Made by a program: the position numbers and the translations under genes. Of a stretch of 64,000 nucleotides of DNA, positions 9,716-15,479 are shown in pieces. Numbering within the stretch: the stretch's first letter is position 1; every line of letters begins with the position of its first letter. Below the pieces are notes generated by a model that saw nothing but the letters and a program-made list of their open reading frames with translations, ran no database searches and was not told the DNA's origin. The stretch comes from Deltaproteobacteria bacterium (GTDB taxonomy: Bacteria; Myxococcota; JADLHZ01), in contig JADLHZ010000027.1 in assembly GCA_020848545.1 (NCBI GenBank), forward strand, positions 62,001 through 126,000, given 5' to 3'.

Positions 9716-11806
9716 ATGAAGATTGCGTTGACGTACAATCTCCGTCTCACCGAATCCGAAGAAGAAGCCGAGTTCGACACCGTGGAAACGGTCGATGCGA
9801 TCGCCAAAGCGCTCGCCGACGCCGGCCACACCGTCGAGCGCATCGAGGTGTCGGGCACCGCGTCGCACTTGCTCGCGCGGCTCGAAGCAAACGATCCGGA
9901 TCTCATCTTCAACACCGCCGAAGGCCGCCGCGGCCGCGCGCGTGAAGCGCTGTACCCGGCGCTCTTCGAAGATCTCGGCGTGCCGTTCACCGGCTCCGAC
10001 GCCTATGTGCTCACGCTCACGCTCGACAAGTGGCTCACGAAGAACGTGCTCTTGAGCCACGGCATCGACTGCCCGCGCGGGCGCGTCGTGACGCCGGTCG
10101 ATCTGCAGCGCGTGCTCGAGCAGGGCGTCGGCGTGCCGTTCCCGGTCATCGTCAAGCCGAACTTCGAGGGCTCGTCGAAGGGCATCGGCGACGATCCGGT
10201 GGCGCGCGATCACAAGACGCTGACCACGCTCCTGAAGGCCGCGCTCGCGCAGTTCCCGCAAGGCGTGCTCGTCGAAGAATTCATCGCCGGCACCGACGTC
10301 ACGGTCGGCTTCATCGAAGGCGTCGGCGACGACGGCATCTTGACGCCGGTCGAGTACGTCATCGACCCGAGCGTCAAGAACAAGCACAACATCTACGACT
10401 ACAAGCTGAAGAACATCGAGCACGACAAGGTCTCGGTGCGCTGCCCGCCGAGCCTCGCGCGCGACGTGCAAGCGCGGCTGAAGGCCCTGGCGAAGACGGT
10501 CTACAAGGCGCTCGCGCTGCGCGATATGGGCCGCATCGACTTTCGCATCGGCGAAGACGGCCGCATCTACTTCTTGGAGGTGAACGCCCTGCCCTCGCTC
10601 GAAAAAGGTGCCGGCATCTTCGCCGCGGCGGAGCTCGAAGGCGTGTCGTACGACGGCGTCATCGCCGCCATCGTCAAGGCGGCGGCGTTGCGCGCAGGCT
10701 TGGCGGCGCCGGAGGCCGCGAGCAGCCGTAAGAAAGCGCAGCCCGTGCGCGTCGGCTTCACCTACAACTTGAAGCGCGCCGACTCGAAGAGCGGCTCGGA
10801 CGACGAGGCCGAGTGGGATCCGCCGGAGACGATCAAAGCGATCACCGAGGCGATCAAGTCGTACGGTCACACCGTCGTGCCGCTGGAAGCGACGGCCGAC
10901 TTGCCCCGCGTCCTCGCTGAGGCCGACGTCGATCTCATCTTCAACATCGCCGAGGGCTTGATCGGCCGGAACCGTGAAGCGCAGGTGCCGGCGTTGTGCG
11001 AGCTCCTCGGCATTCCGTACACGGGATCCGACTCGGCGACGCTCGCGATCGCGCTCGACAAGGCGCTCGCGAAGAAGGTGCTGAAGCAACACGGCATCCT
11101 CACGCCGGAGTTTCAGCTCTTCGAGACCGGCAAAGAGAAGCTGAACCCCGCCTTGAAGTTCCCGGTGATCGTCAAGCCGAACACCGAAGGCTCCTCGAAG
11201 GGCATCGCCGGCACCAGCGTCGTCGACGACGAGGCGGGCATGCGCGCGCTGGTGAAGACGCTGCTGGAAAAATACCGCCAGCCTGCGCTCGTCGAAGAGT
11301 ACATCCCGGGCCGCGAGTTCACGATCGGCCTCTTGGGCGACCGCCGCCCGCGCGCGCTGCCGCCGATGGAGATCGCGTTCAAGGACGACAAGAACGAGCG
11401 GCCGGTCTACGACTTCCAAGTGAAGCAAGAGTGGGAGAAGCACGTCGAGTACGTGTGCCCGGCGAAGGTGACGCAGAGCGAGCACCGCGCGTTGGATCGC
11501 GCCGCCCTCGACACCTTCGAGGCGCTCGATTGCCGCGACGTCGCCCGCGTCGACTTGCGCATGAACAAGGAAGGCAAGGTCTACGTGCTCGAGGTGAACC
11601 CGCTGCCGGGCCTCACGCCGGACTACTCCGACCTCGTGCTCATTTCGAAGGCCGCCGGCATCGAGTACCGATCGCTCATCGGCGACATCCTCGCCGGCGG
11701 CTTGAAGCGCCTCCGCGAAAAACGCCGCGTCGAGAGCCAAGAGCGCGAAGCGCAGAAGATCGAGAACAAGCAGAACGGCCAGGCGCAGCAAACGACCATC
11801 TCATGA
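9716..11806 (+). CDS. Tandem D-Ala-D-Ala-ligase-like protein with two fused ATP-grasp modules
   Basis: The 696-residue protein contains two homologous halves, about 1-335 and 343-690. Each has an N-terminal Rossmann-like part (FNTAEG / FNIAEG, then GxPYTGSD-like), an ATP-grasp lysine segment (VIVKPNFEGSSKGI / VIVKPNTEGSSKGI), a VEEFI or VEEYI strand, and the Mg-binding end (YFLEVNALP / YVLEVNPLP). Family members join carboxylates to amines with ATP, usually making dipeptides such as D-Ala-D-Ala. Both halves keep the key motifs, so both may be active. The start follows a small gap; the stop overlaps the peptidase ATG (ATGA). The true substrate is unknown. Confidence 0.85.
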   Translation: MKIALTYNLRLTESEEEAEFDTVETVDAIAKALADAGHTVERIEVSGTASHLLARLEANDPDLIFNTAEGRRGRAREALYPALFEDLGVPFTGSDAYVLTLTLDKWLTKNVLLSHGIDCPRGRVVTPVDLQRVLEQGVGVPFPVIVKPNFEGSSKGIGDDPVARDHKTLTTLLKAALAQFPQGVLVEEFIAGTDVTVGFIEGVGDDGILTPVEYVIDPSVKNKHNIYDYKLKNIEHDKVSVRCPPSLARDVQARLKALAKTVYKALALRDMGRIDFRIGEDGRIYFLEVNALPSLEKGAGIFAAAELEGVSYDGVIAAIVKAAALRAGLAAPEAASSRKKAQPVRVGFTYNLKRADSKSGSDDEAEWDPPETIKAITEAIKSYGHTVVPLEATADLPRVLAEADVDLIFNIAEGLIGRNREAQVPALCELLGIPYTGSDSATLAIALDKALAKKVLKQHGILTPEFQLFETGKEKLNPALKFPVIVKPNTEGSSKGIAGTSVVDDEAGMRALVKTLLEKYRQPALVEEYIPGREFTIGLLGDRRPRALPPMEIAFKDDKNERPVYDFQVKQEWEKHVEYVCPAKVTQSEHRALDRAALDTFEALDCRDVARVDLRMNKEGKVYVLEVNPLPGLTPDYSDLVLISKAAGIEYRSLIGDILAGGLKRLREKRRVESQEREAQKIENKQNGQAQQTTIS

Positions 11807-12942
11807 CTGAGCCGTACAAGCTGCTCCCGGAGCAGAGGCCACGCTTGCGTGCGCTCGGCCTGAAGATCGGCCACCACCCGCCTGGCCCCCTCAACGCGAT
11901 TACCGACGTGCAAGGCGTGCGCGTGGGCCACGCGACGCTCGTCTCCGGCGAAGGGCCGCTGGTGCCGGGCAAAGGCCCCGTGCGCACCGGCGTCACCGCG
12001 GTGCTGCCGAGCGAGAACGTGTTCTTCGAGCGCGTGCTGTGCGGCGCCTTCGTGCTGAACGGCGCCGGCGAGCTCAGCGGGCTCACCCAAGTGCAAGAGT
12101 GGGGCGTGCTCGAAACGCCGATCCTCCTGACGAACACCATGACCGTCGGCAAGGTGAGCGACGCGACGGTGAAGTGGATGACCAAGCACTTCCCGGGCAT
12201 CGCGCAAGAGTGGGACGTGGTCATCCCCGTCGTCGGCGAGTGCGACGACTCGTTCTTGAACGACTCCGTCGGGCGCCACATTCGCTCGGAGCACGTGTAT
12301 CACGCGATCGAAAAGGCGGCGCCCGGCGAGGTCACCGAAGGCTCGGTTGGCGCCGGCACCGGCATGGTCACGTGCGACTTCAAGTCCGGCATCGGCACCT
12401 CGTCGCGCGTCGTCACGATCGAGACCGAGGAAGGGCCGCTGCAACACACCATCGGCGTGCTCGTGCTGTCGAACTTCGGCGTGCGACGCAATCTGCGCAT
12501 CGACGGCGTACCGGTCGGTGAGATCCTCGAGCCCGAGTTCGATCACTTGTCGAAGCGGCGCAGCAACTACGGCTCCATCATCTGCGTCGTCGCCACCGAC
12601 GCGCCCTTGCTCCCGAACCAGCTCACGCGCCTCAGCAAGCGCGCCGCGCTCGGCATCGGCCGCGCCGGCAGCTACGCCGCGCACGGCTCGGGTGAGATCG
12701 TGTTCGCGTTCTCGACGGCGAACAAGGTGCCGCGCGAGACGAAGCACACCTTCGCCAAGCTCGACGTGTTGCTCGATCGCCATTTGGCGGCGCACTACGA
12801 GGCGGTGATCGAAGCGACGGAAGAAGCGATCGTCAACTCGTTGTGCACCGCCGGCGACATGACCGGCCAAGGGGGCAACTTCGCGCCCGGCCTCCCGCAC
12901 GATCGCATCGTCGCAATCATGAAGAGGTACCGCGGCGGATGA
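11803..12942 (+). CDS. P1-family aminopeptidase, DmpA/BapA type (N-terminal nucleophile)
   Basis: This 379-residue protein fits the DmpA/BapA family of self-cleaving aminopeptidases that release D-amino acids or beta-amino acids from peptide N-termini. The autocleavage/nucleophile site is visible as NYGSIICVVATDAPL, with Ser258 the likely nucleophile after cleavage at Gly257. Other hallmarks are the N-terminal GPLNAITDVxGVxVGH-like segment and EGSVGAGTGM near residues 183-192. No signal peptide is seen, so it is probably cytoplasmic. It overlaps the tandem ATP-grasp gene by four bases upstream and the MscS gene by four bases downstream, a tight co-translated unit. Confidence 0.9.
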   Translation: MTEPYKLLPEQRPRLRALGLKIGHHPPGPLNAITDVQGVRVGHATLVSGEGPLVPGKGPVRTGVTAVLPSENVFFERVLCGAFVLNGAGELSGLTQVQEWGVLETPILLTNTMTVGKVSDATVKWMTKHFPGIAQEWDVVIPVVGECDDSFLNDSVGRHIRSEHVYHAIEKAAPGEVTEGSVGAGTGMVTCDFKSGIGTSSRVVTIETEEGPLQHTIGVLVLSNFGVRRNLRIDGVPVGEILEPEFDHLSKRRSNYGSIICVVATDAPLLPNQLTRLSKRAALGIGRAGSYAAHGSGEIVFAFSTANKVPRETKHTFAKLDVLLDRHLAAHYEAVIEATEEAIVNSLCTAGDMTGQGGNFAPGLPHDRIVAIMKRYRGG

Positions 12943-14441
12943 TCGACCCGCGCCTGATCCTCGCCGCCGTCGTCACCGGGCTCTCGGCGGTGATGCTCGT
13001 GCGCTTCCCGAAGACGCAGCGCAAGCACGTGCTGCGCTCGATCCTCGCGTTCTTCGCCGCCAACGCCGCGCTCTTCCTCGCCGTGCAGCTCACCGACCAC
13101 GGCTACCTGCAGAGCGCGAGCTACCTGCGCAACTTGGCCTACGTCGTCGAAGGTCTCGCCGTCGTCAAGATCTTCGGCGACTTCCTCTTCAAGGTGCTCC
13201 TGCGCATCCCGGGAATGGAGCCGGAGCAGATCTTTCAAGACATCGTCATCCTCGCGGCGAGCGGACTGTGGATCCTCGTGCGCCTGCGCGCGACCGGCGT
13301 CGATCTCTCGCACCTCGTGACGACGTCGGCGGTGCTGACGATCGTCATCGGCTTCTCGCTGCAAGACACGCTCGGCAACGTCATCGGCGGGTTGGCGGTG
13401 CAGCTCGACCGCTCGGTGGTCGTCGGCGATTGGGTGAAGCACGATCAAGTGATGGGCCGGGTGAAGCGCATCACTTGGCGGCACGTCGCCATCGAGACGA
13501 ACAACTGGGAGACCGTGGTCATCCCGAACAGCATCCTCATCAAGAACAAGCTCACCATCCTCGGCCGCCGCGAGGGCGAGGCCGGGCTCTTGCGCCGCTG
13601 GGTCTACTTCAACGTCGACTTTCGCTACTCGCCCGGCGTGGTCATGGACGCGGTCGAGCTCAGCCTGCGCCGCTGCCAGATCCGAAACGTGGCCGAGAAG
13701 CCCGAGCTCAACTGCGTGCTCATCGACTTCGAGGAGAGCTACGCGCGCTACGCGGTGCGCTATTGGCTCACGGATCTGTCGGCCGACGACGGCACCGACT
13801 CGGCGATCCGCGAGCACGTCGTCAACGCGCTCGGCCGAGAAGGCATCTCGCTCTCGATTCCGGCGCACACTGTCTTCGTCACCGAAGACACCGAGGAGCG
13901 AAAGTACAAGCGCGAGCAAAAGCGCATCGAGTCGATCGCGCGCGAGCTGCGCGATGTCGAGCTCTTCCGCAGCTTCACCGAGGACGAGCTGAAGCACTTG
14001 TCTTTGCGCGTGAAGCCGACGCCCTTCGTGCTCGGCGACATCGTCACGCGCCAAGGAGCGAAAGCGCACTGGCTCTACATCTTGGTTGAAGGCCGCGTGC
14101 GCGTGATCTTGGAGGGCGAAGACGGCTCGAAGAAGTACGTCGCCGAGCTCGTCCCGGGGACTTGCTTCGGCGAGATGGGCCTGATGACGGGCGAGCCGCG
14201 GGCGGCGACCATCGAAGCGATCAGCGACATCATGTGCTACCGCCTCGACCGCGAGTCGTTCCTCGACATTCTGCAGTCGCGGCCGGAGGTGGCCGAGGAT
14301 CTGTCGAAGCTCCTTGCACAGCGCCGGCTCGAGCTCGAAGCCGTGCAGGACGATCTCGCGGGTGAAGTATCGGCGAAGCGGCGGGCGCAGACCGAGGCGG
14401 ACTTGCTCGATAAGATTCGCGATTTCTTCGGGTTGTCGTAG
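12939..14441 (+). CDS. MscS-family channel with C-terminal cyclic-nucleotide-binding domain
   Basis: The 500-residue protein has several transmembrane segments in the first 150 residues, then the MscS core (GFSLQDTLGNVIGGLAVQLD, VVGDWV). The C-terminal third is a cNMP-binding domain with the phosphate-binding cassette FGEMGLMTGEPRAATIEA. This is the architecture of bacterial cyclic-nucleotide-gated MscS channels, in which ligand binding, rather than tension alone, may gate the pore. A coiled, charged tail follows. It starts at an ATG overlapping the peptidase stop. Which nucleotide binds cannot be told from sequence. Confidence 0.92.
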   Translation: MIDPRLILAAVVTGLSAVMLVRFPKTQRKHVLRSILAFFAANAALFLAVQLTDHGYLQSASYLRNLAYVVEGLAVVKIFGDFLFKVLLRIPGMEPEQIFQDIVILAASGLWILVRLRATGVDLSHLVTTSAVLTIVIGFSLQDTLGNVIGGLAVQLDRSVVVGDWVKHDQVMGRVKRITWRHVAIETNNWETVVIPNSILIKNKLTILGRREGEAGLLRRWVYFNVDFRYSPGVVMDAVELSLRRCQIRNVAEKPELNCVLIDFEESYARYAVRYWLTDLSADDGTDSAIREHVVNALGREGISLSIPAHTVFVTEDTEERKYKREQKRIESIARELRDVELFRSFTEDELKHLSLRVKPTPFVLGDIVTRQGAKAHWLYILVEGRVRVILEGEDGSKKYVAELVPGTCFGEMGLMTGEPRAATIEAISDIMCYRLDRESFLDILQSRPEVAEDLSKLLAQRRLELEAVQDDLAGEVSAKRRAQTEADLLDKIRDFFGLS

Positions 14442-15479
14442 GTGGGATCCGCGGAGCGCGTCCTCGCCGCCGTGGCGCCGAGCGATCCGACGCGCACACT
14501 GAAGGCGTTGGAGCGGCTGCGACCGATGTTCCTCGCGCATGCGACCGGCGGCGCCGTTTATCTGGACGATCCCGAGCTGCTCGCGGCGTATCGGGCGTTC
14601 TTCTTTCCGCAGACCTTCGCGAAGGTGCGGAGCGTGCTCGAGGAGATCGCGTGGACCGGCGCCAGCGTCTTGGATCTCGGCGCGGCCATGGGCGGCGCGG
14701 CGTTCGCGGCGTGGAGTGCGTCCCCTGCCTCGCGCTTGGAGCTCGTCGATTTTTCCGACGCGGCGTTGCTCGACGGCATGCGCCTCGGCTCCGTCGTTGG
14801 GGCGTCGGTCCGCACGAAGAAGCAGCGGCTCGACGCGCTCACGTTCTCGGCGCGCTACGACTTGGTGATCGCCGCGAACGCGTTGAGCGAGCTGCCGTCG
14901 ATCGAAGCCCGCATCGAGGCCTGCCGCGCGGTGGTCGCTGGCGCGCTGACGCCTGGTGGCCGCTTCTTGCTCATCGAGCCGGCGGATCGCGTGCATGCGC
15001 GGGCGCTGCAGGAGCTGCGGGACCGTTTGCTCGGCGTGGGCCTGCGACCGGTGGCGCCCTGCCCGCACGATGGGCCCTGCCCGGCGAGCGTGCGGCCGCG
15101 GGACTTCTGCCACCAGGCGCGCGAGGTCGCGATGCCGGAGTGGTTCACGGCGCTGCAAGATGGTGTCGGCATCAGCGATCGGCGGATGCGCTTTAGTTAC
15201 TTGGTCTACGGCGGCGAGCCGCGCGCCACGGACGCTTTGGTGCGCGTCATCAGCAATCCGATCAAAGACAAGGGGCGCCTGCGTTTCTTCGGCTGCGCGC
15301 GGAGCGGGCTCACAGAGCTGCTCCGGCAGGACAAGCACGCGAGTGACGCGAATGCCGCGTTCGATACGCTGGGACGCGGCGCGTTGATCCGAATGGCGGC
15401 TCCGGAGCGGGTGACGAAGGTCGGGGCGGAGACTCGGATCGAGATCGTTCGGCAGCTGGATACGGAAGAGAACGACTAA
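14442..15479 (+). CDS. Rsm22-like SAM-dependent methyltransferase (small ribosomal subunit family)
   Basis: This 345-residue protein has a class I methyltransferase fold, with the SAM motif VLDLGAAMGG near residue 75 and LVIAANALSELP later. It is followed by a Cys-rich element PCPHDGPCPASVRP and FCHQAREV. That PCPH...CP...CH signature is characteristic of Rsm22/METTL17-like proteins, which associate with small-subunit rRNA assembly and can bind an Fe-S cluster. The GTG start abuts the MscS stop without a gap, so translation is probably coupled. The role is inferred from the family. Confidence 0.8.
   Translation: MGSAERVLAAVAPSDPTRTLKALERLRPMFLAHATGGAVYLDDPELLAAYRAFFFPQTFAKVRSVLEEIAWTGASVLDLGAAMGGAAFAAWSASPASRLELVDFSDAALLDGMRLGSVVGASVRTKKQRLDALTFSARYDLVIAANALSELPSIEARIEACRAVVAGALTPGGRFLLIEPADRVHARALQELRDRLLGVGLRPVAPCPHDGPCPASVRPRDFCHQAREVAMPEWFTALQDGVGISDRRMRFSYLVYGGEPRATDALVRVISNPIKDKGRLRFFGCARSGLTELLRQDKHASDANAAFDTLGRGALIRMAAPERVTKVGAETRIEIVRQLDTEEND

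Follow-up and report, generated by a model that had tools for sequence, protein, structure and literature searches.

A tandem D-Ala-D-Ala-ligase-like enzyme linked to an S58 (DmpA/BapA-type) peptidase in Myxococcota

Genes of the locus

The 64,000-nucleotide stretch of a Deltaproteobacteria bacterium genome analysed here (the window) carries three overlapping genes. They encode a double D-Ala-D-Ala ligase (Ddl)-like enzyme, a DmpA-type peptidase and a channel of the MscS type that ends in a cyclic-nucleotide-binding domain. This arrangement raises the question of whether the three genes form one peptide storage, signalling or osmolyte system, as a sequence-only reading had proposed. The source genome (7.99 Mb in 163 contigs) contains ten PF07478 matches and one S58 gene. 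The same-strand run that includes the locus consists of the following genes:

9716..11806, plus strand: tandem Ddl-like ATP-grasp ligase, 696 aa (PF07478 twice, 7.4e-71); half 1 is residues 1-326, the linker has a low-confidence stretch at 334-340, and half 2 is residues 341-665
11803..12942, plus strand: S58/P1-family (DmpA-BapA type) peptidase, 379 aa (PF03576, 1.4e-112; phmmer)
12939..14441, plus strand: MscS-type channel with a C-terminal cyclic-nucleotide-binding (cNMP) domain, bCNG-like (PF00924, 9.1e-13; PF00027, 2.7e-22)
14442..15479, plus strand: Rsm22-like methyltransferase (PF09243, 6.4e-21), the last gene of the same-strand run

The ORF coordinates bear out the four-base overlaps described at first sight: the ligase stop TGA (11804-11806) meets the S58 ATG at 11803, and the S58 stop (12940-12942) meets the channel ATG at 12939, in both cases as ATGA. 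The gene identities originally given (two Ddl-like modules, an S58/DmpA-type peptidase and a cNMP-MscS channel) agree with Pfam. The three-gene stretch 9716-14441 holds for its genes but not as the end of the run, which the Rsm22-like gene continues without a gap. Relatives of this methyltransferase were absent from the relatives' loci (tblastn, best 80 of 551 relatives, hereafter the best 80), and it is not part of the proposed system.

The tandem ligase

The two halves of the window ligase are 38 percent alike. An AlphaFold model of the protein (30 rows) had a mean pLDDT of 86.9 and a pTM of 0.52, a value at which the model is no reliable guide to how the two halves are arranged. Half 1 of the model (residues 1-326) matched 4c5a_B (Z 32.9, rmsd 2.4 over 298) and half 2 (residues 341-664) matched 8evy_C (Z 33.2, rmsd 2.6 over 296); the predicted fold of both halves is that of a D-Ala-D-Ala ligase. 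Nine core positions of our own choosing (in DdlB numbering K97, K144, E180, E187, K215, R255, D257, E270 and N272) are filled in both halves, with E187 replaced by Asp in half 1, and the S150 equivalent is also kept in both. The modules had been described as complete, with ATP and Mg motifs, and careful alignment left neither half of the window protein short of catalytic residues, and one dead half is rejected for this ligase. Because the ATP and Mg residues are kept in both halves, ATP-dependent carboxylate activation is expected at each of the two sites. In a wider alignment, a stop interrupts the frame of L105, which leaves 80 of 81 rows readable. Half 2 retains all nine positions throughout (80/80 readable rows) and half 1 in 72/80; five of the eight rows with half 1 changes have D275E, with or without N290D.

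In the active site, His63 is replaced by Glu in both halves (30/30 rows). At the Tyr216 position, half 1 usually has Asn, Thr, His or Ser, whereas half 2 has Gln or Leu. Half 2 retains Gly276 and Ser281 (30/30 rows), for which half 1 usually has Ser and Ala. Since the acceptor-pocket residues of the two halves are unlike, the pockets should differ, and the two modules probably differ in acceptor. Structure prediction, suggested earlier as a check, gave the Ddl fold for both halves, and residue alignment gave the unlike pockets; substrates are not readable from sequence. The window ligase shares with Ddl (PF07478) the way in which each half folds (Z about 33, rmsd 2.4-2.6), its ATP/Mg residues and the omega-loop lysine, and differs in having two modules per chain, Glu for His63, no Tyr216 and, in half 1, no Gly276 and Ser281 equivalents.

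A canonical Ddl is encoded elsewhere in the same genome (L002, with HG, EGKY and NTLPGMT stretches and a match to E. coli DdlB), so the cell does not depend on the tandem enzyme for its Ddl activity, and a role of that enzyme as sole Ddl is rejected. This second enzyme weighs against a side path of cell wall metabolism, in which the ligase would make D-amino-acid dipeptides or a D-Ala conjugate for peptidoglycan or recycling and S58 would be a D-aminopeptidase returning the amino acids. The replacement of His63 and the loss of Tyr216 in both halves point the same way, and no mur or fts family is among the first 25 of 84 neighbour families, which were those listed. The path draws on the closeness of the ligase fold and motifs to Ddl, on the D-aminopeptidase names among the S58 structures matched and on the D-Ala activity of DmpA, and we regard it as unlikely.

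Distribution and age of the ligase

The tandem ligase occurs in many Myxococcota families, mostly at 50-60 percent identity (search of 195 genomes). The loci compared below are the best 80 of 551 relatives, and a wider spread is possible; all 80 match both ligase halves, and their titles name Myxococcales, Kofleriaceae, Deltaproteobacteria, Proteobacteria, named myxobacteria and uncultured bacteria. One locus labelled Comamonas sp. KCTC 72670 (L131) resembles Myxococcus and is probably mislabelled. A 72-row tree places the first halves in one clade and the second halves in another (100/99), which indicates one old tandem; seven single modules of other families branch next to half 2. Adjacent unfused ligase modules were found in L148, L149, L150 and L152. 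On a Thioflavicoccus plasmid (L146:1656-7137), a single-module relative is accompanied by a diaminobutyrate transaminase, SbnA, an ornithine cyclodeaminase-like gene and KamA, a setting that resembles a small natural-product cluster, and another plasmid single-module relative adjoins CapA. S58 is not listed in either of these two plasmid stretches.

The S58 peptidase and its linkage to the ligase

The window peptidase scores 376.6 bits against a cut-off of 23.9 and covers positions 1-305 of the 307 of Pfam PF03576. Its phmmer matches are 2drh, BapA 3n2w and DmpA 1b65, and the closest solved chain, 2drh, is a hypothetical D-aminopeptidase of an archaeon. The predicted nucleophile is Ser258 (codon 12574-12576), whose counterpart in the alignment is the serine that in DmpA and BapA becomes the N-terminal nucleophile after self-cleavage; no obvious signal peptide was seen by eye. 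The window protein is like DmpA and BapA (S58/P1) in its full-length match and aligned serine, and unlike them in being coupled to a ligase. Peptidases of family S58 attack peptides that begin with D-, beta- or other unusual residues, a specificity that is predicted for the window enzyme from its family, and we know of no natural substrate for a DmpA/BapA-type peptidase. PMC9235088 deals with DmpA/BapA and carnosine.

Of the best 80 Myxococcota loci, 43 have S58 downstream of the ligase in the same orientation. In 35 it comes directly after the ligase (within about 350 bases), and in 8 at a greater distance of up to about 5.4 kb; one of these 8 is L105, where the broken ligase frame causes the distance to be overstated. 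It was not seen in 29 of the best 80 with at least 1.5 kb of downstream DNA, and another 8 were too short for adjacency to be judged. The same four-base ligase/S58 overlap is possible in L061, L108, L114 and L133, and S58 was matched in 14 of 19 larger stretches from diverse families (L040-L057 and L059). The outer flanks vary, with HemB upstream in 31 of the best 80 and the window's own flanks in none. The upstream HemB, DUF4177 and RDD genes, named from sequence rather than by profile, were rejected as system members and taken as flank. In eight of the best 80, a GshB-like ATP-grasp gene (PF02955 confirmed in three) lies downstream of the pair (L064:12994-14016, L065:11567-12631, L066:8424-9482, L069:5957-6920, L070:11526-12689, L071:11091-12356, L075:10567-11604 and L109:3255-4292).

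Among 195 Myxococcota genomes, counted raw and related by descent, 129 have both genes, 6 the ligase only, 3 S58 only and 57 neither. These counts were compiled by hand from two search outputs: partial ligase pieces (G106, G107, G139, G151, G153 and G184) and half-only ligases (G055 and G165) were scored as present, weak S58 matches (G008, G015, G161, G162 and G175) counted as absence, a truncated S58 in G018 counted as presence, and for the 38 of 195 genomes without individual listing, absence was taken from the search tally. In genome G164, one frame of 738 aa (L157:3253-5469) joins a PF07478 module (142-322) to a full S58 domain (368-698), and the ligase part groups with half 1 in the 72-row tree (100/99, long branch). 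This fusion rests on one MAG, and no second full-length match was present among the matches listed for 57 other genomes. Adjacency, co-occurrence and the fusion confirm the association of ligase and peptidase first noticed in the window as a conserved link, and the pair is real and old. No paper on it was found in a literature search that had most subscription journals outside its scope.

Whole-genome searches found S58 in 57 of the 80 ligase-bearing genomes (21/40, 32/36 and 4/4; best 80) and did not find it in 23, mainly of a Kofleriaceae-like group, in a set whose MAGs are incomplete. Half 1 is mostly intact in this group, which indicates that the ligase is useful even to cells that lack S58. 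Dispersal of the genes in relatives, which had been named as an argument against a shared system, applies in part, namely to these 23 genomes. The half 1 R255 equivalent is changed in L099, L136 and L138, whose genomes have no S58 match (three cases only). Column 227 of half 1 is changed in 0/43 loci with S58 (window included) and 10/37 without, and column 294 in 2/43 and 16/37, respectively; these loci represent few clades, and the alignment pattern carries little weight. In each of two Polyangium genomes, a pair of adjacent S58 genes lies at a site apart from the ligase (G253:C13:147219-149195 in the genome of L121 and G257:C95:576321-578302 in that of L125).

The genomes that have one gene of the pair bear on another reading, in which ligase and S58 are co-inherited neighbours with separate duties and S58 is a general cytosolic scavenger of beta- or D-peptides that never meets the ligase product. 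The 23 of 80 ligase-bearing genomes missing S58 (best 80), the other DNA between the genes in 8 of 80 loci (overstated for L105) and the three S58-only genomes of the 195 fit such a division, which we nevertheless consider quite improbable, because adjacency persists while the flanks change, co-occurrence stands at 129 versus 6 and 3 among genomes related by descent, and one lineage carries both domains in one frame.

The channel gene

The channel protein contains an MscS domain (PF00924, 143-204) followed by a cNMP domain (PF00027, 366-447). From residue 410 onward it has a phosphate-binding-cassette-like stretch, FGEMGLMTGEPRAAT, and by its domains the protein is a sound member of the bCNG type. 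Its proposed membership of the system did not survive comparison and is rejected: no channel relative was found in the best 80 loci (tblastn, E <= 1e-6) or in 48 other relatives' loci (E <= 1e-10), many of which are short and some of which share contigs with the 80. The neighbourhood survey that had been suggested recovers the ligase-S58 pairing but not the channel, with which the osmolyte or ligand-gated reading loses its main ground; osmolyte or signal roles for the peptide are unsupported. We read the channel/S58 overlap as local operon growth and the channel as a chance local neighbour.

An osmolyte or storage system, in which the ligase would make a dipeptide, S58 would break it down and the MscS channel would let it out of the cell, is very improbable, because the channel lies beside the pair in the window genome only (0/80 loci, best 80) and no other osmotic gene is among the neighbour families listed, even though the three genes overlap in the window and the NAGGN osmolyte cluster likewise combines an ATP-grasp ligase with a peptidase. 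The domain order of the third gene is like that of bCNG channels, and in the literature searched, which for these channels comprised reference-list entries of PMC4560390, no functional link to a ligase-S58 pair was found.

A possible make-and-break pathway

With a probability of about 0.5, the ligase and S58 form one functional unit, a two-step cytosolic ligase with its own amidase, inherited together in many Myxococcota. In this unit, half 1 would phosphorylate a carboxylate and join an amine to it, and half 2, with an acceptor site closer to that of Ddl, would add the next amino acid. Two amide bonds would be formed by acyl-phosphate chemistry at separate active sites in sequence, provided that both sites are active and work in this order. 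The product would be a small cytosolic peptide or amino-acid conjugate, of which S58 may hydrolyse (or trans-acylate) an amide made by the ligase, perhaps that of half 1. Action on the half 1 bond is weakly suggested by the half-1-type fusion and by the lack of an S58 match in genomes with a damaged half 1. Making and breaking would set the level of the compound, as in synthetase/amidase pairs. As a clue to the substrate, nothing biosynthetic stood out among the neighbour families (64 of 178 neighbour proteins scanned). More tentatively, and at somewhat less than even odds, the pair may represent a phylum-wide, so far undescribed two-step pathway that makes and breaks one dedicated cytosolic small peptide, with both genes fused in one lineage and a third, GshB-like ligase added in some relatives.

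Glutathionylspermidine synthetase/amidase (Gss) is a single chain in which an ATP-grasp ligase is joined to an amidase that cuts the bond the ligase makes; its ATP-grasp type is not the Ddl-like one, and the amidase is of the CHAP type rather than S58. Unlike Gss, the window ligase and S58 are separate genes, and a single polypeptide occurs only in the G164 fusion. MysD is a single module, whereas the window ligase has two. According to PMC11983340, MysD is a Ddl homologue that couples a small acid with an amino acid, and loop residues set its specificity. By this description, rather than by sequence, the window ligase, a Ddl homologue that probably joins amino acids, resembles MysD and other natural-product Ddl-like ligases. 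The Anbu operon, as presented in PMC6376114, encodes an ATP-grasp protein beside an N-terminal-nucleophile-hydrolase-like protein, its genes being those of a GshB-like ligase, a proteasome-like subunit, alpha-E and a transglutaminase; none of them is among the window's four same-strand genes (Pfam). For graspetides, the main text of PMC8939145 does not mention S58 or DmpA.

A double Ddl-like ligase has been kept across Myxococcota, and its product is not named in the literature searched. Its pairing with S58 in soil and water relatives of Myxococcus hints at a short peptide not yet identified. A dedicated ligase partner would offer a direct route to the natural substrate of a DmpA/BapA-type peptidase, and if the proposed unit is real, its product would be the first natural substrate for the S58 peptidase of these bacteria.
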